From Rikenellaceae bacterium (GTDB lineage: Bacteria > Bacteroidota > Bacteroidia > Bacteroidales > Rikenellaceae): a stretch of 64,000 bases of DNA. Position 1 is the stretch's first letter. The number at the start of each line of letters is the position of its first letter. Below are positions 3,446 through 26,790 of the stretch, one piece after another. The stretch is taken from assembly GCA_902363575.1 (NCBI GenBank), contig CABJAJ010000004.1, forward strand, positions 186,001 through 250,000, read 5' to 3'. The notes below the pieces were generated by a model. The model had not been told where the DNA came from and did no database searches. It saw nothing but the letters and a program-made list of their open reading frames with translations. A program made the translations under genes and the position numbers.

Positions 3446-5758
3446 TTAGTTTTCGTCGCCATACGCATCGTGGACACAGCGGATGTTTCCCGAAGTAGAT
3501 GACGGGTTGCCATTGGGGGTTTCTTTATTTACCAATCCGCTTGCCGACCAGTAATTGTTACCGCTCATCACTACATCGATCGCGGAATCGGGAACCTTCT
3601 GGAATCTAAGAATAATTTCCACCTCGGAATGCGTCGGCAGACGCCATTGGTCGTATTTCACGACTTTGGGGTAGCCGTTTTCCATCACCTCTTTGCCGTT
3701 TTCGTCGAGCACCTTGTGTACCTCGACATAGTTCCGGCAATGAGTTTCGGCCGTGCTCTTTGAACTAGTGGTAGGCGTTGTCCCCAACTGCGAAGCGATC
3801 AGGAACGAGGGCGATACGATTTTCGCATTCTCCGCGCTGCCATCCGTAATCTCGTTGGTTATCCGCGGACGGCCCAGCGTATAATCGCCCGACGAAACCG
3901 TAATCCGGACATGGTACATACGATTATTGGGATTACTACTCTCGGCGTCAGGCGCACTTCTCTGATAACGATAGGTATTGTTGTTTGGACCTATTTCCTG
4001 CCATGTATAACGGTAAATGCTCTTTGTTTCCGGTTTATATACTTTTGAATAGAATTTAAAAGTCTCGTTAGAACTATTTGTCTTCCTTTGGGCCGCAGTA
4101 AAGCGGTTATTTCTGCCGTAAGTTTGGCTTTCGACAACCTCCGCTCTGTTGCCGTCCAGATACTCCCAGTTGGTTTTACCGCCGTTGAAATCGTCGCGGT
4201 AGGAGTACCAGCCGTGAACATTGGTGATATATTCCAGCGGGTATTGGACGACCGTGATATAGCGTTCGGTCCCCTCCTCGTTAGTCACTTTCAGCTTGAT
4301 ATAGCGCGGGGCGTTGTTCGTCGGAAGCGGGCTGTCGATCTTGATATGTCCCGACAGGTCCGGGTCCGGCGTAGCATGGATATCGGTGAACGGTTTGCTA
4401 TTCTTGTTCAAATATCGTTCGTCATCGTTTTTGTCGTAATACCACGCCTCCACGACCGTCACGGTCACCTTCGACGACGAGGCGAATTCGAGGGTGTTGT
4501 TGTCCTCGTCGATATTGTACATCGCCATCTCGTCGGTATTCACCATCAGGTAGTTCGGGCGGCTGCTGTCGTCGCCGACACCGATCGTCATCGTCTCCCA
4601 GGGGATGACGGTGTAAGAGGCCTCCAAGTCGACGGCTTGCGTGGGGTTGGAGGCGCCTACGGCATTGACCGTCACGGTGATCCGGTAGATATGGTTGCGG
4701 TCGAGGCGTTTCTGCGCCGGGTTGCAGATCGGAATCTGGTAGTAGTTGGACTGCTCGTATTTCGCGTCGCTATCGGGATCCTGTGTCGGGTCATATGTCG
4801 AACCACCTTCCACGTCGGGCTGGTCCGGGTGGTTCCACAGCGGCAGGTTGACGACCAGGTAAGGCTCCGACTCGAACGCGCTCTGCCGGCTCCAATCATG
4901 GCTGTAAACGTAGGTCTTGATGCGGACTTGCTCAGGGTAGACCTCTGCGCCGGGGTTGTCGCCCCAGGAGAAATAAGGGCCGTTATAGCGGCCGGTGGTG
5001 ACTACCTCGGGCAGGTACGTCTCGTTGGTCGGAGGCACGAGCCGTGTCGTGTAGGGCATATTGTTGATGTAGTAACCGGCGGCATTATTTCCCTCTGCGG
5101 CGTGGGTCTGGTCGGCGAACGTGATTTTGTCGCCCTTTTTGATAACGACCTCGATTTTGGCGGCGGCGCGGCGCAGGGTCACCAGCAGCTCGGTGTTCTC
5201 CGACATGTTGCCGTCGTTAAGCACCACCCGGCCCGGGGCGGAGGGTTCCGTCTCGTTTTTCGGGTAGGCTACGCCCTCCATGAGGAACGTCTCGGGGGCC
5301 CCGGAGGTCCGTCCGTCGCCCGTCACATGGATCAGCTCGTCCTGCTGCACCTTGGCCCGCAGATCGGTAAGGGTTGCGATCTTCCCGAAATCCTCCGTTT
5401 CGGAGAGCGTGGAGTTGGCGATCAGGTAGACCCAATATTCGGCTCCCGGCGTAAATTCGTTGCGCCGTTTCGAGAGTGTGATCTGCCCTTTGTCCTGTTG
5501 GCTGCCGGCCACACGTTCGTAATGCGCCTTCTTGCCGTCGGTGTCGAAGATTAGTACGTCGAGCCTGTCGACGCGCGACTCGGTGGCTTCGTCAGCCACG
5601 GAAGCGCGTGTTTTCAACTGTTCGATGCCCGAAATGCCGAGGCGGATGGCGTTGTCGCCCGGCACGTTCGGCGCTACGGGCGCATCGTCCCGGATACAGC
5701 CCGCAAGACCGCACGCCGCGAAGCAGAACATTGCTAAATAGGATAAAGTCCGTTTCAT
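3446..5758 (-). CDS. Fimbrial minor subunit or tip adhesin with Lcl/FISUMP-like C-terminal domain
   Basis: A 770-residue lipoprotein: lipobox at Cys21 (LAGC), a Thr-Arg-Ala motif at 50-52, then an Mfa/FimA-type N-terminal domain (residues about 37-390). The last 100 residues differ from a normal fimbrin: they contain WRLPT, a spaced YWSAS and a terminal RCV, the signature order of the DUF1566/FISUMP-type C-type-lectin-like fold seen in surface proteins. I infer an adhesive domain fused to a fimbrial scaffold, so the protein would sit at or near the tip. It lies 55 bases after the preceding subunit gene in the operon. Mid-gene composition (about 3900-4240) is more AT-rich than its neighbours. 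Confidence 0.75.
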   Translation of the reverse strand: MKRTLSYLAMFCFAACGLAGCIRDDAPVAPNVPGDNAIRLGISGIEQLKTRASVADEATESRVDRLDVLIFDTDGKKAHYERVAGSQQDKGQITLSKRRNEFTPGAEYWVYLIANSTLSETEDFGKIATLTDLRAKVQQDELIHVTGDGRTSGAPETFLMEGVAYPKNETEPSAPGRVVLNDGNMSENTELLVTLRRAAAKIEVVIKKGDKITFADQTHAAEGNNAAGYYINNMPYTTRLVPPTNETYLPEVVTTGRYNGPYFSWGDNPGAEVYPEQVRIKTYVYSHDWSRQSAFESEPYLVVNLPLWNHPDQPDVEGGSTYDPTQDPDSDAKYEQSNYYQIPICNPAQKRLDRNHIYRITVTVNAVGASNPTQAVDLEASYTVIPWETMTIGVGDDSSRPNYLMVNTDEMAMYNIDEDNNTLEFASSSKVTVTVVEAWYYDKNDDERYLNKNSKPFTDIHATPDPDLSGHIKIDSPLPTNNAPRYIKLKVTNEEGTERYITVVQYPLEYITNVHGWYSYRDDFNGGKTNWEYLDGNRAEVVESQTYGRNNRFTAAQRKTNSSNETFKFYSKVYKPETKSIYRYTWQEIGPNNNTYRYQRSAPDAESSNPNNRMYHVRITVSSGDYTLGRPRITNEITDGSAENAKIVSPSFLIASQLGTTPTTSSKSTAETHCRNYVEVHKVLDENGKEVMENGYPKVVKYDQWRLPTHSEVEIILRFQKVPDSAIDVVMSGNNYWSASGLVNKETPNGNPSSTSGNIRCVHDAYGDEN

Positions 5759-5813: not shown

Positions 5814-7463
5814 TTATTGAATGATGTGTTCGATTCCTATTAAAATGTCGCTCGAAACCCTTTGGTCTTCGGGTTCGTTGGTGGGCCAGTAAAGCCCCGT
5901 ATCGGTTTTATTGATAAGCAACAACTGGTTGTCCCCGAGCCACGAAGGGGTGTTGATGCCCAGCATCACGAAGTTGCCCGCCAATGAGACGTCGGGGTCG
6001 AGAACACGCACCACGATCCGGTAGAAATTCGGGCCGGCCTCGATGGCGGCGGTGTGCATCGGGTCGTTCGGGTCGTTGTCGTAGACCTTCTTGTCGGTGT
6101 TGTCGTAGACCGTCAGCGAATACTGGGTCGTCGCTGCATTCATCAGCGTGGGCGTCCACCGCTGCCCGCTGGGAGCGGACATCTGGAAGAAGAAAGAGCA
6201 GGTGCCGGCAGAACTGGGATCGTTTGCGACGAAATGGTCGGGAACGTCCGCAGAGTAATAGTAGATCGTCGGGGCTGTCACGGGATCCGGAGCCTGCTGG
6301 TTTCCCTCCGTAAGCAGGTTGGTGTAGGTGGGATATTCGAACGTCGATTCCCAGTTGTCATCGTCGTCGTTCTCCCAGTCGGCGACCAGGTATTCCACGG
6401 TGAACAGCCCCGAGTTGTTGACCAGGCAGCGGACGCGGTAATAGTGGTTGCGCAGCATCGCGGGCAGGTAGACTTCGTGCGTCCGAACGTCGGAGCCCGC
6501 GAACCGATAGCTGACAACGAGCACATTGCCGTCGGGGGCGCCCGGAGCATTGGGGGCATCACTTCCCCACGGGTTTTCGAACGGGTAGAACGGGGCTTCG
6601 AGTACAGGAGTGTAGCCGTCATCGCCCGCTCCTGGGCCATTCAACTCGGCGACGGGAGCCTGAACCGGAACGAGGGCAAAGTCGGTGTCGCTGCCCGACG
6701 CTTGCATGCCTTTCAGCGTCTCTTCGCTCTGCGGCATCAGGTAGTTGCTCGTGCGCATACCCTGCCGTTGCAACGCCAGGCCGGTGATCGTCAGTTCGGC
6801 CGTTTCGCCCGGCTGTTTGGCGGCGAAGACCCCCAGTTTGGCGACGGGGCGCCGGAGTTCCAATTTGATCGTTTCAGCCGCCAGTTGCGTATGGTCGTCG
6901 TGGTCCCCGGCGTTGACCGGCGGATTGGGATCCTCCGGAGCATTCGGGTCTTTATCCTGGGCTACATCGATTTCGACACCCACCTTTTTGCAAAACATCG
7001 GAAGGCCGTTCGTGAGCGAGGCTCCCGTGAACGAGAGTCCCGTGAACGTATAGCCGTCGAGCTGGTCGCGGGTCGTCGTTGCCGACAAGGTGTGGCTGCC
7101 GCCGGTCATCGCCTGTTCGTTGGCCACCACGTAGAAATCGACCGTCTGCGTGGTCGTTGATTTCAGGGTCATGTCCATCAGGAACCGGACAGACCCCTTC
7201 TCGCTCGGGACTTCGCTGTAATAGTAGCCGACGCGCTCGTTGCCGATAAAGGCATAGACGCGGAGCGTGTGCAACTTCGCCTCTTCGGAAGTGGGCGTTC
7301 CGTCCGTGGCATCGACGCTGCGCGTGCCGATATTCAGCAGCACGGGGACGTTCTTCGTGTCGGAGCCGGGAGTTGCCCCATCCTCCTTGATGCAGCCGGA
7401 CATCGCCCCGCCGCAGCAGGCGGCGACAAACGCCGCAAAAAACAGGTATCTGACTTTACGCAT
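5814..7463 (-). CDS. Mfa1/FimA-family fimbrial subunit (accessory)
   Basis: 549 residues, lipobox at Cys24 (MSGC), a Thr-Arg-Ser motif at 47-49. The segment after the motif (LHTLRVYAFIGNERVGYY) is the typical first strand of the FimA/Mfa N-terminal domain (P_gingi_FimA), and a second hallmark is the ADWEND strand near residue 365, the position of the usual C-terminal beta strand of the N-terminal half. In this pilus class subunits are exported as lipoproteins, cleaved after Arg on the cell surface and polymerised by strand exchange. Twelve bases separate it from the anchor gene, so translation is probably coupled. Whether it is a shaft or tip component cannot be read from the sequence. Confidence 0.8.
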   Translation of the reverse strand: MRKVRYLFFAAFVAACCGGAMSGCIKEDGATPGSDTKNVPVLLNIGTRSVDATDGTPTSEEAKLHTLRVYAFIGNERVGYYYSEVPSEKGSVRFLMDMTLKSTTTQTVDFYVVANEQAMTGGSHTLSATTTRDQLDGYTFTGLSFTGASLTNGLPMFCKKVGVEIDVAQDKDPNAPEDPNPPVNAGDHDDHTQLAAETIKLELRRPVAKLGVFAAKQPGETAELTITGLALQRQGMRTSNYLMPQSEETLKGMQASGSDTDFALVPVQAPVAELNGPGAGDDGYTPVLEAPFYPFENPWGSDAPNAPGAPDGNVLVVSYRFAGSDVRTHEVYLPAMLRNHYYRVRCLVNNSGLFTVEYLVADWENDDDDNWESTFEYPTYTNLLTEGNQQAPDPVTAPTIYYYSADVPDHFVANDPSSAGTCSFFFQMSAPSGQRWTPTLMNAATTQYSLTVYDNTDKKVYDNDPNDPMHTAAIEAGPNFYRIVVRVLDPDVSLAGNFVMLGINTPSWLGDNQLLLINKTDTGLYWPTNEPEDQRVSSDILIGIEHIIQ

Positions 7464-7475
7464 GATCGTAATTGC

Positions 7476-8375
7476 TTAAAATTCGGGTTTCACATCCTGG
7501 ACAAACCACTCCGGTACCGAGACCTCGACGCCCACCGAGGTGAACTCGATGCGGATCGGAATTAGCACTTCGTGTTTCGAGCAGTCGATCTTCGGGTTGG
7601 CGGCGATGAACTCCGCGAGGTTGATCTCGACGAAAGTACTCTCGCCCGAAGCGGTGCGCAGGCAGACGTTCACGTCTTCGTGGTTCGTGTGCCGCATTAT
7701 ATTGGTCCGGGCCGTCAGCAACATTTTGCCGGCGTCGTATTTGGTTTCGAGTCGGTAATCGGTCGCCTCTCCGCATGCGCGGTTCTCAAAGTCGGTGCAA
7801 GGCGTGACACCGCAGATTTCGAGCATCGGCAATGCGCCGGCTCTGACATCGGGCTGGGGAATGCCGGCTACCTCGATCGCTACGTCGTAGTGGGAGCTGG
7901 CAAAGGATACGAGCGTCGTGCGGTTCGCGTCCTTTCCGGTGAATCCATCCACCTTTACGGGAACCGATGCATGATAGAGCGAGTCGTTGCCCGAGGCGAC
8001 TCCGCCTTCCAGGTAGGTTGCGTCGGCGAAACGGATCGCGTCGAAGCGCCCGGCCGACAGGTTGTGGACTTTCGTCCGGTGGGTGTTGCCCAGGCACACC
8101 ACCCGATAATCGCCGGGGGCGAGGGGCGGCAGTTGCGCCGTGCGCGCCGCGACCTGGTCGTTGGGAACGACGAAATTTTCCACGCAGTTGTTCTGCGCAT
8201 CGAAAACATACATTTCGACCCGGCAGATTTTATCCCCGAAGATCTCGGTCGTGCCGTCGCCCAGGTAACTCAACACCAGTTTGTGCGTGTTGCGGCATCC
8301 GCTCAGGTCCTCCTGGACACACGACGATGCCAATCCTGCAAGCAACAAGCCCAAAGCGAAAATTCTGAATTTCAT
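7476..8375 (-). CDS. FimB/Mfa2-family fimbrial anchor lipoprotein
   Basis: 299 residues. The start SSCVQEDLSGC, with the lipidated Cys19 followed by a second Cys eight residues on, is characteristic of the FimB/Mfa2 family (PF08842), which terminates and anchors the pilus in the outer membrane. Unlike the four other subunits it has no Thr-Arg-Ser/Ala site after the lipid Cys, in keeping with a protein that stays attached. It follows the major fimbrin by 92 bases that contain a strong hairpin. Loss of such anchors gives overlong, shed fimbriae in Porphyromonas; the same role here is inferred from family and gene order. Confidence 0.88.
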   Translation of the reverse strand: MKFRIFALGLLLAGLASSCVQEDLSGCRNTHKLVLSYLGDGTTEIFGDKICRVEMYVFDAQNNCVENFVVPNDQVAARTAQLPPLAPGDYRVVCLGNTHRTKVHNLSAGRFDAIRFADATYLEGGVASGNDSLYHASVPVKVDGFTGKDANRTTLVSFASSHYDVAIEVAGIPQPDVRAGALPMLEICGVTPCTDFENRACGEATDYRLETKYDAGKMLLTARTNIMRHTNHEDVNVCLRTASGESTFVEINLAEFIAANPKIDCSKHEVLIPIRIEFTSVGVEVSVPEWFVQDVKPEF

Positions 8376-8467: not shown

Positions 8468-9619
8468 TTAGAATTCGGCGTTAACGTTTCTCACCTCCCA
8501 TTCAACGACATCAACGGTAACATCGACGCACTTCAACTCCTGTTTCAGGTCGTTATCGTTGAACGCGAAGCTCACCCGGTAGATCTTGGCGAACTCATTC
8601 GTTATGACCGGCTCACCGTTGGTGGTAAATCTGGAGGTAAGCAGATAGAGGGGCACCTGGGTGCCATCTGCCTTCGTACCGATCAACTGTACCGCGAGCT
8701 GCGGCTGAGCTGTGGTTCCGATGTTAGTGGCGTTAGGGAAGAAATGGTATGCCGGACGAGCTTCGCCGTCAGCGTAGGTCTTCGCGTACGAAGCCGCTGC
8801 ATTGAGGTCGATCGCCGGATCGATGGTATCGTTATACCAAAACCCAACACCATCCTGCTGTTTGGCAGCATTTAAGAAGAACTCGGCGGCTTTTTCATCG
8901 TCGATCGGCTCAGACTTTATTGCACCGATTACTGCTCCGTCTGCGAACTTTGCCGTCTCATAGTAGTTGTTCAGTACGACCTGCTTGACAGCGATGCTCG
9001 TGTAATCACGCGGCAACTCCGTCTGGCCATCCTCATCAAGTACTGCGTTGTACTTGAAGCTGGCAACCTCGATACGCGACACGCGGGGGACGAGCGATAC
9101 GGAAACTTCGTAAAGCGGGTGTCCTTTGTCGTCTGTACCTGTGATCTTGTCCAGCTCGGCCTCGGCATAAAGGGAAAGGTTCGCATCGTCCTGCTCGTCG
9201 GCAATCGCCAGGGATTGTTTCAAATCGCCTACGGTCGCAGCCTCACTTTTGGCTCCCAGGTTACCGATAACGATTACTTTGGTCACATTGGAAGGCAGGA
9301 AATGGAATATCTGCTTTTCGAGCTTGATGAAGCCCTCATCCGTAAAATCAAAATAATGTTCTGTGGCGACGTTGTCTTCCGTCTTGCCCTGCACCAAAGT
9401 ATTGCCACTGACGAAAAACACTTGAAGATCGTTTACCGTGACCTTGGTCTGATCGCCGACAGGAAGATCGGCACGGGTTCCGGGTACGACATTTTTCAGG
9501 GAAAGAGTTACACTCTTTGGGGTGTTATCACTGACCCCGGCCCCGTTCTCGTCCTTGTTGCAGGCCGTGAACGCCATCGCTGCCATAGCGGTTAGCGCAA
9601 GTAAATTTTTGATTTTCAT
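8468..9619 (-). CDS. Major fimbrial subunit, FimA/Mfa1 family
   Basis: 383 residues with lipobox at Cys20 (FTAC) and a Thr-Arg-Ala motif at 48-50, followed by the FimA/Mfa-type strand VNDLQVFFVSGN. The C-terminal end (VDVTVDVVEWEVRNVNAEF) is the conserved final strand used in donor-strand exchange of type V pili. First subunit gene of the operon, directly upstream of the FimB/Mfa2-like anchor, as is usual for the shaft protein. Codon use is less GC-biased than in the rest of the operon, as expected of a highly expressed or variable surface protein. The 80 bases before it hold no convincing promoter, so it is probably transcribed from the DUF3575 gene onward. Confidence 0.87.
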   Translation of the reverse strand: MKIKNLLALTAMAAMAFTACNKDENGAGVSDNTPKSVTLSLKNVVPGTRADLPVGDQTKVTVNDLQVFFVSGNTLVQGKTEDNVATEHYFDFTDEGFIKLEKQIFHFLPSNVTKVIVIGNLGAKSEAATVGDLKQSLAIADEQDDANLSLYAEAELDKITGTDDKGHPLYEVSVSLVPRVSRIEVASFKYNAVLDEDGQTELPRDYTSIAVKQVVLNNYYETAKFADGAVIGAIKSEPIDDEKAAEFFLNAAKQQDGVGFWYNDTIDPAIDLNAAASYAKTYADGEARPAYHFFPNATNIGTTAQPQLAVQLIGTKADGTQVPLYLLTSRFTTNGEPVITNEFAKIYRVSFAFNDNDLKQELKCVDVTVDVVEWEVRNVNAEF

Positions 9620-9699: not shown

Positions 9700-11193
9700 T
9701 TACAACTGGTCGATGACCTGCCGGACATGGTCGAGGTTGTGACGTGCTTCGTCCGAACCCAGCTCCGCAGCCCGGCGGAACAACTCCTCGGCCTTGTGCA
9801 ACTCGCCACTGCGGGCATAGGCCACGCCCAGCGTATTGAGCAGCACGGGCTGTTGTGCCATTTCGCCACTCTTTTCCAGCCCGGCGATCGCCTCAGCCGT
9901 GTCGCCGCGGCCGAGCGCGTCGAGCGCACGGTCGTTCAGCACGGCCGGTTTGTCGGGAAAGTAACGCGCGGCAGCGTCCATCACCCGCTTGTAGTCGACC
10001 GAGCCTTTCTCGTAGGAACCGGCGACCTTGTACATCTCCTGCAGGCTCAGCAGGTCGGGACGCTCGTCGACCATCCGCCGCGCCTCTTGCAGGTCGAAGT
10101 TGCGCACGTTGTACTCGATTTTGTACTCGTTACGGCGCAGCGGGGGATAGACCTCGTTCAGCAGACGCTGGTAAATCTTAGCGGGTTGCAATTTGCGGAA
10201 TTCCCGCTCGCAATAGTCGTGGTTGTCGGGATATTGGGCGATCAATTCGCGGATACGGTCGAGTCGCAGCAACTGCGGATAGTCGTCCAGCGCACGGATA
10301 AATCCATCCCAGTCCTCACCGTGCCACTCGACATGGATCAGTTCGGGGGAGATGTCGTCGTGGCGGCGGATATACTCGGCGAGCGCCTTGGCGCGGTTCT
10401 CCGAAAGCGTGAGGTTGTGCGCCATCGAACCCTCGGGCGACGCATAACCCGAAATGTAGATCCCCGTGATCTTCACGTCCTCGTTCCGCTTCACGAGCAG
10501 GATCGAATTCGACACCGTGTCGAGTTCGGCGCGGTTGTTCCTGAAATCCGGCTGGATTTTGTAGCTGTCCTGACGGAATTGCAGCCGTGCTGTGCGGGTT
10601 TCGGCGCGTACCTTCACCGGTTCGGGTTCGGGGGCGATCGTCGCAAGGCGGTAGTCGGGGATGAACTCGGGGATAATGCCGGAGAGCAGAATTTCCTCCG
10701 ACTCGCCGGAGCCGCAGTTGACACATCCGTGAACCTCCTCGCGCAACTCCACGCGCCCGTCGAGCATCCAGCGCTCGTAAGGCAGCGATGCCGTATAGTC
10801 GTAGGTCTGTTCCTTGCCGTTGCGGCGGCGGATCACGACTTTCGTCTCGTCGTTGTGGTAGGGAGGCAACTCCACGCTTTTCAGGCGCTGAGCGCGCAGG
10901 TAAACCCGGTTGCGGGTGCCGCCGTCCACCACCACCGGGGGGAAGGCCGCCTCCCGTTTGCCATCACGCGATACCAGCACGGGCGTCAGCGCCACCGTGT
11001 GCTGTGTCCGGATACGCGCCCGGCTCAGGTCGACGCTCATCGTCAGCGCTACATTGCGGTTCTCTTTCCGGACCTCCTTGTCCTGCACCTCGATAACCGG
11101 CAGGTAGGTCACGATCTTTTCGGCTTTGCCGGCATGCGCCCAAACCGGGCACCATATCCAGACCGATAATACTATGCGAAAGATGTACTTCAT
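9700..11193 (-). CDS. DUF3868 protein with OmpA-like and TPR segments
   Basis: 497 residues with a signal peptide (residues 1-21). The first 150 residues match the DUF3868 type of domain found at the head of Bacteroidales fimbrial loci. Residues about 215-300 form an OmpA/peptidoglycan-binding-like domain (GYASPEGS, then NLTLSENRAKAL), and the C-terminal 120 residues contain TPR-like helices (VLLNTLGVAYARSGELHKAE). I infer an envelope-tethered assembly or scaffold protein that links the fimbrial machinery to peptidoglycan. It starts 14 bases after the DUF3575 gene and is followed after 80 bases by the major fimbrin. Confidence 0.8.
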   Translation of the reverse strand: MKYIFRIVLSVWIWCPVWAHAGKAEKIVTYLPVIEVQDKEVRKENRNVALTMSVDLSRARIRTQHTVALTPVLVSRDGKREAAFPPVVVDGGTRNRVYLRAQRLKSVELPPYHNDETKVVIRRRNGKEQTYDYTASLPYERWMLDGRVELREEVHGCVNCGSGESEEILLSGIIPEFIPDYRLATIAPEPEPVKVRAETRTARLQFRQDSYKIQPDFRNNRAELDTVSNSILLVKRNEDVKITGIYISGYASPEGSMAHNLTLSENRAKALAEYIRRHDDISPELIHVEWHGEDWDGFIRALDDYPQLLRLDRIRELIAQYPDNHDYCEREFRKLQPAKIYQRLLNEVYPPLRRNEYKIEYNVRNFDLQEARRMVDERPDLLSLQEMYKVAGSYEKGSVDYKRVMDAAARYFPDKPAVLNDRALDALGRGDTAEAIAGLEKSGEMAQQPVLLNTLGVAYARSGELHKAEELFRRAAELGSDEARHNLDHVRQVIDQL

Positions 11194-11207: not shown

Positions 11208-11783
11208 CTATTTAATGATGTATATAATGGAAATACCGGCCTTCGTCGGACCGAAATAGTGCCGGTCGTTCGAACCGCGAAATTCTCCGCAGGTTGCGCA
11301 TTCGTAGCGGTCGAATTTCGTATAGACGTATCCGAAACCGAGCGTTGCTTCGAGGTTCCAGCGCTTGCCCAGCAGCCACGAATAGCCGTAGGAAATACCC
11401 AGGCCGGTAGCCCAGCCTTGGTAACGGTGATCACGCATGGATTTTTTCAGGAACGGAATGCGCACGCGGCTGATGTTGTACTCGCCGTAGCCCGTGTGCA
11501 GGCCGAAGAAGTGGCCGTTGAAACGCTCGCAGAGCCAATAGCGGAACTCGGGCATCACTGACCAGAATTTGAGCTTTTTGTTCTCCTCTTTGTTGAGTGT
11601 CCAGGGGTTGTAGTCGCCCATCAATTCGAGCGTCGTCTGCTTACCCAGGCCGATTTCGAGCCCGACGTTGAGTGTGCCGGCCGCAGCCCAATGCACCGCA
11701 TTGGTTTTGACCCCGAGCTGTTGGGCGACAGCCGCACCCGCCGAACAGCAAAATAGAAATGCGATGACAAGAATTTTTCTCAT
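11208..11783 (-). CDS. DUF3575 outer-membrane protein, first gene of fimbrial operon
   Basis: 191 residues from the ATG at 11783; an in-frame ATG at 11804 would add seven polar residues before the signal peptide and is less likely. The signal peptide ends at AVAQ. The body alternates short beta strands with turns (LGVKTNAVHWAAAGTLNVGL is the typical DUF3575 opening, then WTLNKEENKK and a G-rich C-terminal barrel), fitting a small outer-membrane barrel. DUF3575 plus DUF3868 genes head many Bacteroidales fimbrial loci. A promoter-like pair of boxes lies about 80-110 bases upstream. Exact role in pilus assembly is not established by the sequence. Confidence 0.83.
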   Translation of the reverse strand: MRKILVIAFLFCCSAGAAVAQQLGVKTNAVHWAAAGTLNVGLEIGLGKQTTLELMGDYNPWTLNKEENKKLKFWSVMPEFRYWLCERFNGHFFGLHTGYGEYNISRVRIPFLKKSMRDHRYQGWATGLGISYGYSWLLGKRWNLEATLGFGYVYTKFDRYECATCGEFRGSNDRHYFGPTKAGISIIYIIK

Positions 11784-11863
11784 GTACATATAATTTGTTT
11801 GCATGTGTCAAGTCAATTACCCAATGGCGCCGTACACGATAGCGGTCCGGCAGTATGCAGCGA

Positions 11864-11917: not shown

Positions 11918-11950
11918 ATATGACAGTCTTTTCCAAAAAGACTGTCATAT
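11918..11950. repeat. Palindromic element A, left inverted copy
   Basis: A perfect 15-base inverted repeat (11918-11932 with 11936-11950) around a CCA centre. Bases 11926-11945 are the exact reverse complement of 13148-13167. No T-run follows on either strand, so it is not a terminator. Arms around a short asymmetric centre is the layout of a tyrosine-recombinase crossover site; an operator for the AraC-type regulator is the alternative. Confidence 0.8.
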
Positions 11951-12041
11951 GTGAATTAAAAAACGATATGAATTGAAAATGAAATGCTTAAATATGCAAT
12001 AAACGATAGAAACGTTTAATCGGAATATTTTCTGCGGATTA

Positions 12042-12072
12042 TTGTGAAACATATAACGCAAGCATCTGTTTG
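12042..12072 (+). promoter_or_regulatory. Candidate promoter of the AraC-type gene
   Basis: TTG (12042-12044), 20 bases, then TCTGTTTG (12065-12072), one mismatch from TAnnTTTG. Transcription would start near 12078, which favours the ATG at 12108 over the GTG at 12081. Confidence 0.5.
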
Positions 12073-12107
12073 CCAGATACGTGGCTCACTTCATAACAGA
12101 ATCATCG

Positions 12108-13037
12108 ATGAAACTAAATGAATTCGATTCTGTCTGGGGGACGCTCCGCACGGACGGATGTCCGGTCGGCTGTGCGGTATGCTCCTACGATCAGGAAAGA
12201 TTTTCCGCTCAATTCTCGCAAATTTCAATTCAGGACGGGCAGAGCCTGCCCGAAGCACCCTATAATTCGCACCGTATCCTGTTTCTGCTCTCAGGACGCA
12301 TACAGGTCAATATCGGCGTATGCGGTCCCTACATCCTCTCTGACGGACAGTGCATCTTTCTCTCCAGAAAGCGCAACGCATCGGTGGTGGCGCAGATGGA
12401 GAGCAATGTGATTACGCTCGACTTCAACAACCGTATCACTTTCTGTCACCACGATTTTTTAGCAAAAGTGGCGACAAAAAGCCAACGCACCGCTATCGTC
12501 GGTCCAGTGCTGAAAATCGTTCCTGAGATTTTGGCATTTCTCCGAAATCTCGAACCGGGGCTTGATCCCCGAAAACTCCATATTCCTTGCTATCACATTA
12601 TTAAAGAACACGAATTGTTGTTAATGATGCGCCATTGCTATGGAAATACCCGACTGGGCAGGTTCTTCCGCGACATCCTCAAACCCAGGGACGACTTCGA
12701 GTTATTCGTTCTGAATAACTGGCGATACGTGGAGAGCGTCACGGAACTGGCGCAAGTAGCTCACATAAGCGAAAGCACTTTCATCCGCCGTTTTCGTGAA
12801 ACATTCAACGAATCCTGCCATACCTGGTTGGTGAAACAGCGGGCGGCTGAAATCGAGCTGGCCATCCGCAATGGAGTAACCGATAACGAAGAGTTGATCC
12901 ACCGGTTCGGATTCAAGAGTTACCTGGCTTTTTACCGGTTCTGCCAACGTTATCTGGGCGCTTCTCCGACCGGCATTAAAAACAAGTATAACTTTAAGAC
13001 CCAGAATATTGAAGCACATTATGTGACAGAAAAATGA
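12108..13037 (+). CDS. AraC-family transcriptional regulator
   Basis: 309 residues from the ATG at 12108; a GTG at 12081 would add nine residues. The N-terminal 190 residues look like a cupin-type sensing domain (strands around residues 40-110), and the last 100 residues hold two helix-turn-helix motifs of the AraC/XylS type (SVTELAQVAHISESTFIRRF, then a second recognition region ending FCQRYLGASPTGIKNK). It is transcribed away from the fimbrial operon and is the only gene inside the segment bounded by the two inverted copies of the palindromic element. I infer that it controls the fimbrial operon, its recombinase neighbour, or both; the ligand is unknown. Its GC content is lower than the chromosomal core genes. 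Confidence 0.88.
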   Translation: MKLNEFDSVWGTLRTDGCPVGCAVCSYDQERFSAQFSQISIQDGQSLPEAPYNSHRILFLLSGRIQVNIGVCGPYILSDGQCIFLSRKRNASVVAQMESNVITLDFNNRITFCHHDFLAKVATKSQRTAIVGPVLKIVPEILAFLRNLEPGLDPRKLHIPCYHIIKEHELLLMMRHCYGNTRLGRFFRDILKPRDDFELFVLNNWRYVESVTELAQVAHISESTFIRRFRETFNESCHTWLVKQRAAEIELAIRNGVTDNEELIHRFGFKSYLAFYRFCQRYLGASPTGIKNKYNFKTQNIEAHYVTEK

Positions 13038-13061
13038 TATTAAATTGATTGTTTTTGGTCC

Positions 13062-13070
13062 GGGGGGGGG
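13062..13070 (+). repeat. G9 homopolymer tract
   Basis: Nine consecutive G downstream of the AraC-type gene, 25 bases before a perfect TAnnTTTG box (TATTTTTG, 13095-13102). Such tracts change length by slippage. Confidence 0.8.
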
Positions 13071-13094
13071 AGAATGCGAACCATTATAAAAACT

Positions 13095-13102
13095 TATTTT
13101 TG
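13095..13102 (+). promoter_or_regulatory. Promoter-like TATTTTTG box inside the putative invertible segment
   Basis: A perfect TAnnTTTG match pointing right, toward the element at 13148. No TTG lies 19-21 bases upstream, so it would be weak or activator-dependent. In the present orientation it reads into a hairpin with a T-run; after inversion of the segment it would read into the fimbrial operon. Confidence 0.4.
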
Positions 13103-13146
13103 TGTAGGCTAACAAAGAGGGTGAAGAAAGGTAAATGAAACCATTT

Positions 13147-13177
13147 TACAGTCTTTTTGGAAAAGACCGTATTTTTT
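13147..13177 (+). repeat. Palindromic element B, right inverted copy; also a terminator-like hairpin
   Basis: An 11-base stem with one mismatch (13147-13157 with 13161-13171) followed by six T. Bases 13148-13167 equal the reverse complement of 11926-11945. The T-run lets it end transcripts of the AraC-type gene. A second small hairpin (ATCCCC with GGGGAT) follows at 13182-13198. Confidence 0.75.
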
Positions 13178-13225
13178 CTGTATCCCCTTTTTGGGGATTG
13201 AAATCCCCGGCTATGAGCAAATATA

Positions 13226-14584
13226 TTATTTTTCTCGCTTTTTTACTAATCCTGCACCGTTCTTTTTCAATAACCCCGCAACTTTTTCATTGGCGGCATC
13301 GACCGTCGTGTTGTCCAGTTCATCCAGATAAATCTGGGTGGTCTTCTCCGAGGTGTGCCCCAGTCCGGTGCTGATTACGGAGACCGGAATGCCCTCCCGG
13401 CGGGCCAAACTCGCCCAACTGTGGCGCGCCACATTGAAAGAGAGTTTGATCGGCAGGTTCAGCCGCTGGCTCATGCTGCGGAAAAAACGCAGGTAATGGG
13501 AGAGGTTGTATTTATAGCGTAAGTAGAGTCTGGCCTCGAACCGGGCCTGTTCTTCGGGCGTCGAGCCTTCGTACACGAGCGGATGCAGCAGACCGTCCTC
13601 TTTGAAATCGAGCAGTACGGGCAGTGCCCATGGGGAACACTGTTCCCGATAACGGTCGAGAATCTTCTGAGCCTCGGGGATAATCCGGATCGTGTACATC
13701 TGCCCCGTTTTGCGGCGCCGGTAGCGGATGAACCCGTCCTGAACATCCTCCTGACGCAAGTAGGACATATCGACGAATGACATACCCCGGGTATAGAAAC
13801 TGAACATGAACATATCGCGGGCGCAGTTTAACTTGTCGGAGTCCGGAAACTCCGACGTGGCAACCCGGCGAATGATCTCGACGCTGACAGCCAGTTTGCG
13901 CGTCTTCTCGATACGCACGGGTACAGCCCGAAAAGGCGACTTGTCGTGGGTGACATACCCCCGTTTCTGCGCCTTGTTGTAAACGGCCCGGAAATTACTC
14001 ATGTAAAAGGAGACGGTATTGGGTTGCAGCGGGATTTGCCGCAGATAGCGTTCGAAATCGAGTATCATATTCTCGTCCACGTTATCGAAATTGATGCGCC
14101 GTGAACCGGAGAATTTCTCGAATACGATCAGTGTGGCGTTGTACTTGTTGGCAGTCCCCAGCGCCCCTTCCCTGCGCAGCTCCTCGATCTGGCGTTTGAA
14201 AAATGTGTGTACATAGTGGTTGTCGTAACGCTGGCGGTAGGCCAGGGTGATGTCCCGAATGGTAAACGACCGTCCCTCGCGTTCCAGTTCGGAGAGGATA
14301 TGCGCGATCTCTTTTTTCTGCCGCTCCAGAAAGACATTGATCTCTCGGATAAAGGCCGTATGTGCTTTTTGCCGGGAGGTTGCGACAGCCTTTTGCCGCT
14401 TGGCATCGAACTCTCCGGGCAGCAACCGGTAGGGCGTGAAGATCACACCCCTGCGACGCTCCCGAATCAGTTGAATGACGAGTGTATAACGGCCGTCCCC
14501 GGAGCCTTCTCGGATGTTGAGCATCGGCTTGATGCTCATATTGGGATGTTTGACGTCCGCATGCGATTCTTTTCTGTTAATCAT
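13226..14584 (-). CDS. Tyrosine recombinase of the Bacteroidales DNA-invertase type
   Basis: 452 residues. An N-terminal arm-binding domain (about 15-110) and core-binding SAM-like domain (about 120-215) precede the catalytic domain. Visible catalytic residues are Arg266 (in YTRGMSFVDMSYL), Lys292 (YRRRKTGQ), Arg387 (ARHSW), His410 (GLGHTSEKTT) and Tyr419. The first His of the usual HxxR box is Asn384. The RGM.FVD, YRRRKTGQ and GHTSEKTTQIYL blocks are those I associate with the invertases that flip surface-gene promoters in Bacteroides. It lies convergent to the AraC-type gene and 54 bases from element B, so it is the natural candidate to act on elements A and B. The start could also be Met16 (14539). 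Confidence 0.9.
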   Translation of the reverse strand: MINRKESHADVKHPNMSIKPMLNIREGSGDGRYTLVIQLIRERRRGVIFTPYRLLPGEFDAKRQKAVATSRQKAHTAFIREINVFLERQKKEIAHILSELEREGRSFTIRDITLAYRQRYDNHYVHTFFKRQIEELRREGALGTANKYNATLIVFEKFSGSRRINFDNVDENMILDFERYLRQIPLQPNTVSFYMSNFRAVYNKAQKRGYVTHDKSPFRAVPVRIEKTRKLAVSVEIIRRVATSEFPDSDKLNCARDMFMFSFYTRGMSFVDMSYLRQEDVQDGFIRYRRRKTGQMYTIRIIPEAQKILDRYREQCSPWALPVLLDFKEDGLLHPLVYEGSTPEEQARFEARLYLRYKYNLSHYLRFFRSMSQRLNLPIKLSFNVARHSWASLARREGIPVSVISTGLGHTSEKTTQIYLDELDNTTVDAANEKVAGLLKKNGAGLVKKREK

Positions 14585-15515
14585 GGCACCACCTTTTTAA
14601 CGGGTTATTCATTTTGGAAACCGCAAAGTAGGTGTTTCGATACAGAAAAAATCCAGATGTCGAAACGACATAGCGGGAATAAATCCCAATGCGTCCTGTC
14701 CATCGGGAGCATGGATCAGCATGAGATGCGTTTTTATCATCTTATCTTCGTGTTAGCGTTATGTGTACGTAACCGCAAATACGAAGTCAGGGTGACGTGG
14801 ACTCGACAACGCGATTCGTGCCGGACACAGTTCGCCCCGGAGGGCATGAATAGTTTTGGGTCGGTGAAGTTTATTGGGCAGGATCGATCATAAATCGAGC
14901 TTCCATATGTTCGATCGGCATATTCCTTTTCTTGGAATCTGAGGTCTCGTTGCGTTCCGGGGCATCTCCGCCATGTGCATAGCCCCCGGCTTGATCTGTC
15001 GGTCGTACCGGCATACAACGTAAAGATGGACGCATGTAGTATTCGAAGTCCTAAACTTTTCGGCACAACGTACTTAAACTCGCCGATATAAGGGCTGACA
15101 AGAGTTACACTCGACGGTTATGCGGGGTATTCGGGTTCACTTGCCGAAAAATGCCGTTATCCCGTCCTGCGGTATCGCACCGTCTGAAACTTCTATTTGA
15201 TGCCAGACTTGTCGTAATAAGAAAAGAGGGTAAGGAAGGTATTATCGATTGGAATTGACGGCCGCAGTCGAATTACTGGAAGGCTTGTTGCGTTCATTAA
15301 AAAATGACCTGCAAGAATAATCTTTTTCTCGCCATATAGGTCTAAATGTTTAAATTTAGCCACTGCGTTCGCAGTCTTCTCCGCGAAGCGGTACGACAAC
15401 GAAAGTGCGACGTCGGAATCCCGCGCTGCCGCCATAGGGACTGGGAGCGTGCTGGTCACAAAGGTCGAACGCCGTGAGGTAACGGAACAGCCGTCCTTAC
15501 TTTACGACCTAAATG
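14585..15515. other. Non-coding, probably decayed region
   Basis: About 930 bases between the recombinase and tRNA-Lys without a convincing gene. Short open frames on the minus strand (14737-15066 and 15193-15459) have no family features or promoter. Base composition is lower in GC than flanking core genes. A 14-base segment at 14639-14652 is the exact inverse of 13171-13184, so the recombinase gene is flanked by short inverted repeats. No copy of the tRNA 3' end was seen near the recombinase. Confidence 0.5.
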
Positions 15516-15550
15516 CAAAAAAGACCGGTAATCATTGATTACCGGTCTTT
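15516..15550 (-). terminator. Terminator of tRNA-Lys
   Basis: A 15-base perfect inverted repeat (15520-15534 with 15536-15550) followed on the minus strand by a run of T, directly after the tRNA. Confidence 0.85.
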
Positions 15551-26435: not shown

Positions 26436-26790
26436 CCCCGCAGTGGGCCCCGCATGGGCGGGTATGATCGAAGCAGGGAGCGATGGAAGTCGCTCCTTCG
26501 CATTTTATCCGGCTGATGTTTATGCGTTTGTCCGGCTGTCCGGCCGGGTCGAAAGCTGCGGGGCTATAAACGGTTCGTGTCCGCAAGGCGCTCTGTCCTT
26601 GTGCCCCCCCCCATCTCTCTGCCGCAGTTTGACATGCAGCATTTGCTGTCTCGCGCCGTGGAGACTTATCTGACTCAGAGAGCTGTGTGGACAGCCGGAC
26701 GTCGGGGAACTGCTTTGTGGCCATGGGTTCCCGTGCCGGCAAGAACGCGGCGGGAGTCGTGCGTCGCTTGGTTCTGAAATTCCGAACGGA
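26436..26790. other. Intergenic with helicase terminator and a C9 tract
   Basis: Convergent spacer. A seven-base hairpin (26477-26483 with 26490-26496) followed by a T-rich stretch ends the helicase transcript. A run of nine C lies at 26604-26612. Otherwise I see no gene. Confidence 0.6.
26604..26612 (+). repeat. C9 homopolymer tract
   Basis: Nine consecutive C in the convergent spacer between the DEAD helicase and mnmA; not in a gene or next to a promoter. Confidence 0.75.

Follow-up and report, generated by a model that had tools for sequence, protein, structure and literature searches.

A predicted invertible promoter carrying its own AraC-type regulator gene beside a fimbrial operon in Alistipes-family genomes

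Invertible promoters usually flip little beyond the promoter itself. The outer-surface-protein loci of Bacteroides fragilis reportedly carry promoters of this kind that are switched by tyrosine recombinases, an account associated with Weinacht et al. 2004. The fimS segment of Escherichia coli, where the tyrosine recombinase FimB flips a promoter for fimbriae, is 314 bp long and is not known to hold a regulator gene. The fim promoters of Bordetella, which are not known to involve DNA inversion, have a poly-C tract between the presumed activator site and the promoter. In the flagellar switch of Salmonella, Hin is a serine recombinase and an outward promoter lies on the inverting DNA. One account of that switch places the recombinase inside the invertible segment (PMC5903667), and the Bacteroides -7 consensus is given as TANNTTTGY in PMC12632263. 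The term AraC is absent from the main text of PMC11892184 and PMC5903667. Searches of the open literature, outside which most subscription papers lie, listed no title on an AraC-carrying invertible cassette; the one paper matching a combined search was, by title, on a Streptococcus equi genome.

Here we describe a locus in a 64,000-nucleotide stretch of contig CABJAJ010000004.1 (positions 186,001 to 250,000), hereafter the window, from a Rikenellaceae bacterium (Table 1). We think it likely that the element is an invertible promoter, driven by a recombinase, that carries its own AraC-family regulator gene. A preliminary description of this DNA had proposed an invertible cassette that flips a whole regulator. 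The invertible cassette is well supported, as the sites track the recombinase and related segments occur both ways around. The emphasis on the regulator needs revision: an outward -7 promoter box at the 3' end of the AraC-type gene had been missed, along with the G9 tract before it, and the element is better described as a promoter plus a gained gene.

Table 1. Coordinates of the features of the locus within the window.
Feature	Coordinates	Strand	Remarks
Mfa2/FimA-type fimbrillin, possible tip	3446..5758	-	C-terminal Lcl_C match below cut-off
FimA-type fimbrillin	5814..7463	-	Pfam match
Mfa2-type anchor fimbrillin	7476..8375	-	Pfam match
ORF of fimbrial operon, likely fimbrillin by position	8468..9619	-	no Pfam hit
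DUF3868/OmpA-domain gene of fimbrial operon	9700..11193	-	Pfam match
First gene of fimbrial operon, DUF3575	11208..11804	-	Pfam match
Left recombination site (predicted)	11918..11950	.	exact repeat 11926-11945 within 15-base-arm palindrome
TGAAAC element, candidate operator	12045..12050	+	upstream of AraC-type gene
AraC-type regulator gene	12108..13037	+	309 aa from ATG; HTH_18; inside cassette
Candidate activator site GATTGTTTTTG	13047..13057	+	upstream of outward box; motif roughly GGTGcATTTTG
G9 tract	13062..13070	+	ends 24 bases before -7 box
Outward -7 promoter box TATTTTTGT	13095..13103	+	consensus match only; faces recombinase now
Right recombination site (predicted)	13148..13167	.	exact inverted copy of 11926-11945
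Tyrosine recombinase, presumed invertase	13226..14584	-	Phage_int_SAM_5, Phage_integrase, Arm-DNA-bind_5

The AraC-type gene lies alone between two exact inverted copies of a 20-base sequence, and both the pair and the single gene within it (ORF and Pfam matches) agree with the initial proposal. So does the form of the sites, each of which is a near-palindrome around a short asymmetric centre (GTCTTTT-CCA-AAAAGAC); the left copy is embedded in a longer hairpin, an extension that the right copy lacks. No longer exact inverted repeat was found between 11.1 and 15.3 kb, and a search of the 64 kb allowing up to three mismatches found the site at these two places only (0.01 expected; one was counted twice, the sequence being near-palindromic). 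The inverted pair around the gene is not a product of chance. An 18-base inverted pair occupies the same places in L001 (Alistipes sp. CHKCI003) and L002 (A. montrealensis; L numbers denote loci). The centre reads CCA in the window, CCT in L001 and TGG in L002, and the two sites agree within each genome. These three loci were found by synteny; other loci were selected partly by an exact site match, and the agreement of their sites is therefore not independent evidence. A site pattern with an open centre occurs in 3 of 180 genus genomes, and two of those three matches are at this locus.

The pair stands beside a site-specific recombinase, whose gene reads towards the cassette and stops 58 bases beyond the right copy; the preliminary description had recognized the tyrosine recombinase here, which Pfam bears out, and had put the spacing at 54 bases. 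The Phage_integrase match of 33.2 bits (cut-off 27.1) identifies a tyrosine-recombinase catalytic domain. Candidate catalytic residues appear in the translation in YTRG, RRKTG, ARHSW, GLGH and IYL, assigned with R, K, H, R, H/W, Y, which we take to be the catalytic motif, and all XerC/XerD-type matches fall below the NCBIfam cut-offs. A PDB sequence search gave no match, the viral contigs searched held no relatives, and plasmid records gave 80 matches, all below 60% identity among the matches listed (5 of 80). The AraC and recombinase protein clusters have equal longest contigs in both searches (10505, 13618 and 24332), which indirectly suggests that the two genes occur on the same contigs.

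Relatives of the recombinase at E 1e-60 or better were found in 57 of 268 family genomes, at 68 places, five of them already in the analysis, 60 added and three left out. In half of the added loci (30) an inverted pair encloses a short segment, roughly 140-490 bases long; six have an AraC-type gene between the pair, and 24 have no usable pair of at least 14 bases, some of the latter lying near a contig end. The short segments exclude L114, where the pairs lack the near-palindromic form and fall on the opposite side of the recombinase; a further recombinase, at L028, is 105 bases from a contig end and its left side is unreadable. In a midpoint-rooted tree of 46 recombinases (L129 and L131 left out), the 11 enzymes of AraC cassettes form one group with those of L063-L066 (94/84, not starred), with L063-L066 sister to the window's branch of five (100/100). 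Explaining the AraC label on this tree takes two changes, either a pair of gains or a gain and a loss.

Read from an alternative GTG start at 12081, the AraC-type ORF matches HTH_18 at 43.4 bits (cut-off 33.6) and HTH_AraC at 28.1 bits (cut-off 26.6), identifying an AraC-family helix-turn-helix DNA-binding domain, and its named relatives are from Alistipes. To the left of the cassette and reading away from it lies the fimbrial operon that had been proposed earlier, now confirmed by DUF3575, DUF3868/OmpA, Mfa2 and FimA matches. Mfa2 and P_gingi_FimA are above their cut-offs within this one cluster, as in Mfa/FimA (type V) fimbriae of the Bacteroidales.

Cassettes of the same plan number thirteen, the window and twelve more in Alistipes-family genomes. 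Eleven have a recognized recombinase (window, L001, L002, L026, L027, L067, L069, L078, L081, L105 and L117, of which L067 and L069 are near copies), and two further ones, L129 and L131, have a pair of 21-22 bases around an AraC-type gene beside a fimbrial marker gene. Gene order in L001 and L002 is as in the window, with identities to the window of 54-55% for the AraC-type protein and 78-79% for the recombinase. In all 13, genes that include a DUF3575 or OmpA/DUF3868 marker form a leftward set, and the AraC-type gene is directed away from it; a different ORF comes first in that set in some (L067, L069, L081, L117 and L129). The contig of L131 ends 43 bases past the site. To its right L129 has only a C-terminal recombinase fragment, covering residues 327-412 of the L081 enzyme with 93% identity. 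L129 (8880-9137) and L081 are two AraC cassettes of a single genome (G605) with similar site arms, and one enzyme might serve both. At L026 (2196-4832) the recombinase has the direction of the AraC-type gene, reversed relative to the other cassettes, so that, as now oriented, the outward box there reads towards the start of the recombinase gene. L142 was left out of the thirteen because its 13-base pair overlaps the AraC coding end, although it has a recombinase match and its AraC-type gene is followed by a -7 box. Four loci with a recombinase and then an AraC-type gene in tandem (L068, L070, L071 and L073), considered as flipped cassettes, were dropped because the DNA examined held no flanking pair or fimbrial gene; their recombinases form a separate group.

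Examination of the DNA between the AraC stop codon and the right site revealed, in every one of the 13 cassettes, a TAnnTTTGY box that lies 28-57 bases from that site and points across it, out of the segment. Shuffling predicts 0.57 in 11, and the three other combinations of place and direction gave 1, 0 and 1 of 11; the pattern was known beforehand, and its place was chosen after looking. Every promoter call here is a consensus match only; a clear -33 box is missing by eye in most cassettes, and Sigma70-type and terminator scans found no more than chance. None of the 13 gaps beyond the left site holds a leftward, operon-facing -7 box, and of the 13 cassettes only L129 has one in the first 160 bases on the inner side of that site. 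With the outward box on the far side, the fimbrial operon thus has no recognizable promoter at present, and inversion would supply one. All 13 cassettes, the window's included, look OFF by this arrangement.

Upstream of the outward box there is a weaker motif, at about -48 from the box in the window, L001, L002, L026 and L027 and, roughly one helical turn away, at about -37 in some others (L078, L081, L105, L128 and L130); it does not fit L067, L117, L125, L126 or L131. Near copies (L069, L127 and L132) were omitted from the search, some of the sequences used are related, and the shuffled controls were given fewer starts and iterations; the motif is a suggestive candidate for an activator site. 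The G tract of the window has counterparts at the matching place in L001 (G9) and L002 (G10), both at 25 bases; L026 has a G9 farther from the box, and seven other cassettes of the 11 compared have no tract. Slippage of the tract is possible. Poly-G as a general promoter feature was rejected, only 2 of 34 tracts in other loci preceding a -7 box (distance 25, the position already noted for L001 and L002). The window holds further G/C homopolymers of 9-10 bases at 26604, 43336, 51741, 52747 and 59294, none of them within 60 bases before a -7 box, and some of these may be slippage sites in genes.

The region in front of the AraC-type gene has features of its own. TGAAAC/GTTTCA, a pattern chosen after looking at the sequences, has 20 occurrences, spread over 10 of the 13 regions upstream of the AraC-type gene, where 1.6 hits in 1.5 loci are expected; one of the 20, in L026, is apparently the AraC start itself. 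Copies lie 11-12 bases apart in five loci, four of which have an opposite copy 84-85 bases off (counts in which L067 and L069 are near copies), and near the outward box the pattern occurs in 1 of 12. The arrangement suggests a conserved control region for the AraC-type gene. A rightward consensus -7 box between the left site and the gene is absent in 12 of 13 cassettes. Shuffling predicts 0.98 where one was found, and the missing box is therefore weak evidence; boxes are present in the stretch scanned in three of six relatives without a pair and in 3 of 9 recombinase upstream regions. The AraC start was set roughly in several loci, where the scanned stretch may end slightly early or late. The absence nevertheless leaves AraC expression in the OFF state unexplained, which is a point against our main reading.

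We propose that the adjacent tyrosine recombinase would exchange strands at the two near-palindromic sites and so invert the enclosed DNA of approximately 1.2 kb. As sequenced, the promoter at the 3' end of the AraC-type gene would face the 3' end of the recombinase gene, leaving the operon OFF. After inversion it would read across the left site into the DUF3575 gene with a leader of about 180 bases (ON), and the recombinase, AraC-type gene and fimbrial operon would all run in the same direction. The sites, the enzyme family and the promoter geometry are well supported; we infer the inversion of this particular cassette, the role of the box as operon promoter, its activation by the AraC-type protein and a tuning of the promoter by the poly-G tract. 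The single orientation and the recombinase fragment of L129 led us to lower our confidence in the invertible promoter a little.

A more elaborate scheme, a switch of up to three layers, seems doubtful to us. Inversion would connect the promoter, and the co-inverting AraC-type protein would then activate the promoter beside it. The regulator would be well expressed only in the ON state, when its gene is co-directional with the recombinase, and the switch would latch itself and have memory. In the window's lineage the G9-G10 tract, which separates the -7 box from the candidate activator site, would add slipped-strand tuning on top of inversion.

The preliminary description had taken a single orientation in deep read data and in all related strains as telling against inversion, and our comparison across species, with one genome per species, has so far found just that for the AraC cassettes: none of the 13 is opposite. 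This uniform orientation is the main result against free switching. Both orientations are seen at related loci that lack the AraC-type gene. A 545 bp segment is opposite in L064 and L065 (95.6% identity, flanks collinear on both sides), as are a 299 bp segment in L101 and L102 (100%) and a 190 bp segment in L104 and L112 (84%), again with collinear flanks; a shorter comparison found opposite segments in L063/L064 and L084/L085. Since L063-L066 are sister to the window's branch, segments of neighbouring enzymes are thus seen both ways. L101 and L102 belong to one genome, which has two recombinase copies with a 261-base segment, over 99% identical across several kb, in opposite orientations.

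Among the 30 short segments, the outward -7 box faces the recombinase in 20, faces away in six, points both ways in two and is lacking in two; facing the recombinase was taken as OFF for whatever genes lie beyond the segment, and some loci are close relatives. At the rate of the one-way segments (20 of 26 OFF, 6 of 26 facing away), 13 of 13 OFF has a chance of about 0.03 (about 3%, for loci that are not independent), and the AraC cassettes are therefore either more strongly OFF or partly locked. This imbalance and the fragmentary recombinase of L129 would fit a former inverton that is now locked OFF in some or all lineages. The recombinase ORFs of the window, L001 and L002 are full-length, however, and the paired sites, though they differ from species to species, have remained identical to each other in each genome; we regard such locking as unlikely.

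It is less probable still that the AraC-type gene is a fixed divergent regulator whose flanking repeats are operators, or an operator and a terminator, with no inversion at all. The one orientation of all 13 cassettes would be expected of such a regulator, the left site forms a strong palindrome within the operon leader, and the right site reads by eye as a hairpin followed by a T-rich run, although the terminator scan did not list it. The repeats, however, follow the enzyme and not the regulator. Nine AraC homologues with no recombinase match nearby all lack a flanking exact pair of more than 11 bases within 450 bases. Among 20 further AraC loci, comprising the best new matches and a sample of weaker ones, 17 have no pair of at least 13 bases, though four of these (L126, L127, L132 and L139) cover less than 450 bases on one side and so say little; the remaining three of the 20 are L129, L131 and L142. 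Conversely, recombinase relatives that lack the AraC-type gene have like sites, some of them around visibly inverted segments. That the sites go with the recombinase family rather than with the AraC-type gene is well supported. Agreement of the centres within each of the three genomes, with change between the species, is required for strand exchange and not for an operator, nor would operators lead one to expect a box that faces away from the operon in every one of the 13. Some AraC relatives in which no pair was found have a -7 box just after the gene (L125-L128, L130 and L132, three of them truncated), and eleven more distant AraC loci (L133-L141, L143 and L144) have none there. In L130 the AraC-type gene, the box, a lipoprotein-like ORF, DUF3575 and a further ORF all run in one direction with no pair found, an order that resembles a fixed ON arrangement. 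L125, L127 and L132 share AAATAGGGGTTATATAATATTATAT downstream of the AraC-side promoter box; this sequence is also exactly where the L127 and L132 contigs end.

That the recombinase gene rather than the AraC segment inverts is hardly credible: a 14-base exact inverted pair (ATTTTTTCTGTATC, 13171-13184 and 14639-14652) does flank it in the window and the L026 recombinase is reversed, but neither L001 nor L002 has a counterpart of that pair, whereas the AraC-flanking pair is present in all 13 cassettes. Between the recombinase gene and the next gene there is a hairpin (15520-15550) whose 15-base arms match perfectly.

An invertible promoter that travels with a dedicated transcription factor would join random switching to signal-dependent control in one unit: a cell would be OFF by chance but still subject to regulation after turning ON, and inversion would also flip the regulator's own transcriptional surroundings. 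The cassette offers a direct way into the question of why such fimbrial switches are found OFF, and its anatomy can be searched for to find other phase-variable regulators in gut commensals.

Compared with known systems, the locus shares with the Bacteroidales invertible promoters a tyrosine recombinase, an inverted pair, a -7-box promoter between the sites and surface genes beyond them, but its segment is approximately 1.2 kb long and holds a complete AraC-type gene. Its box lies at the 3' end of a gene and 28-57 bases from the site, whereas the distance is 5-15 bases in most short segments. As in the Hin switch, a gene and an outward promoter are on the DNA predicted to invert; in contrast to that serine recombinase, which is encoded inside its segment, the recombinase gene here is outside the pair and the regulator gene inside. 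Unlike fimS of E. coli, the cassette holds a regulator gene. It resembles the Bordetella fim promoters in having a homopolymer, of possible length variation, between a candidate activator site and the promoter, and differs from them in its predicted DNA inversion. The AraC-carrying cassette is best read as an enlarged version of the known recombinase-driven invertible promoter.
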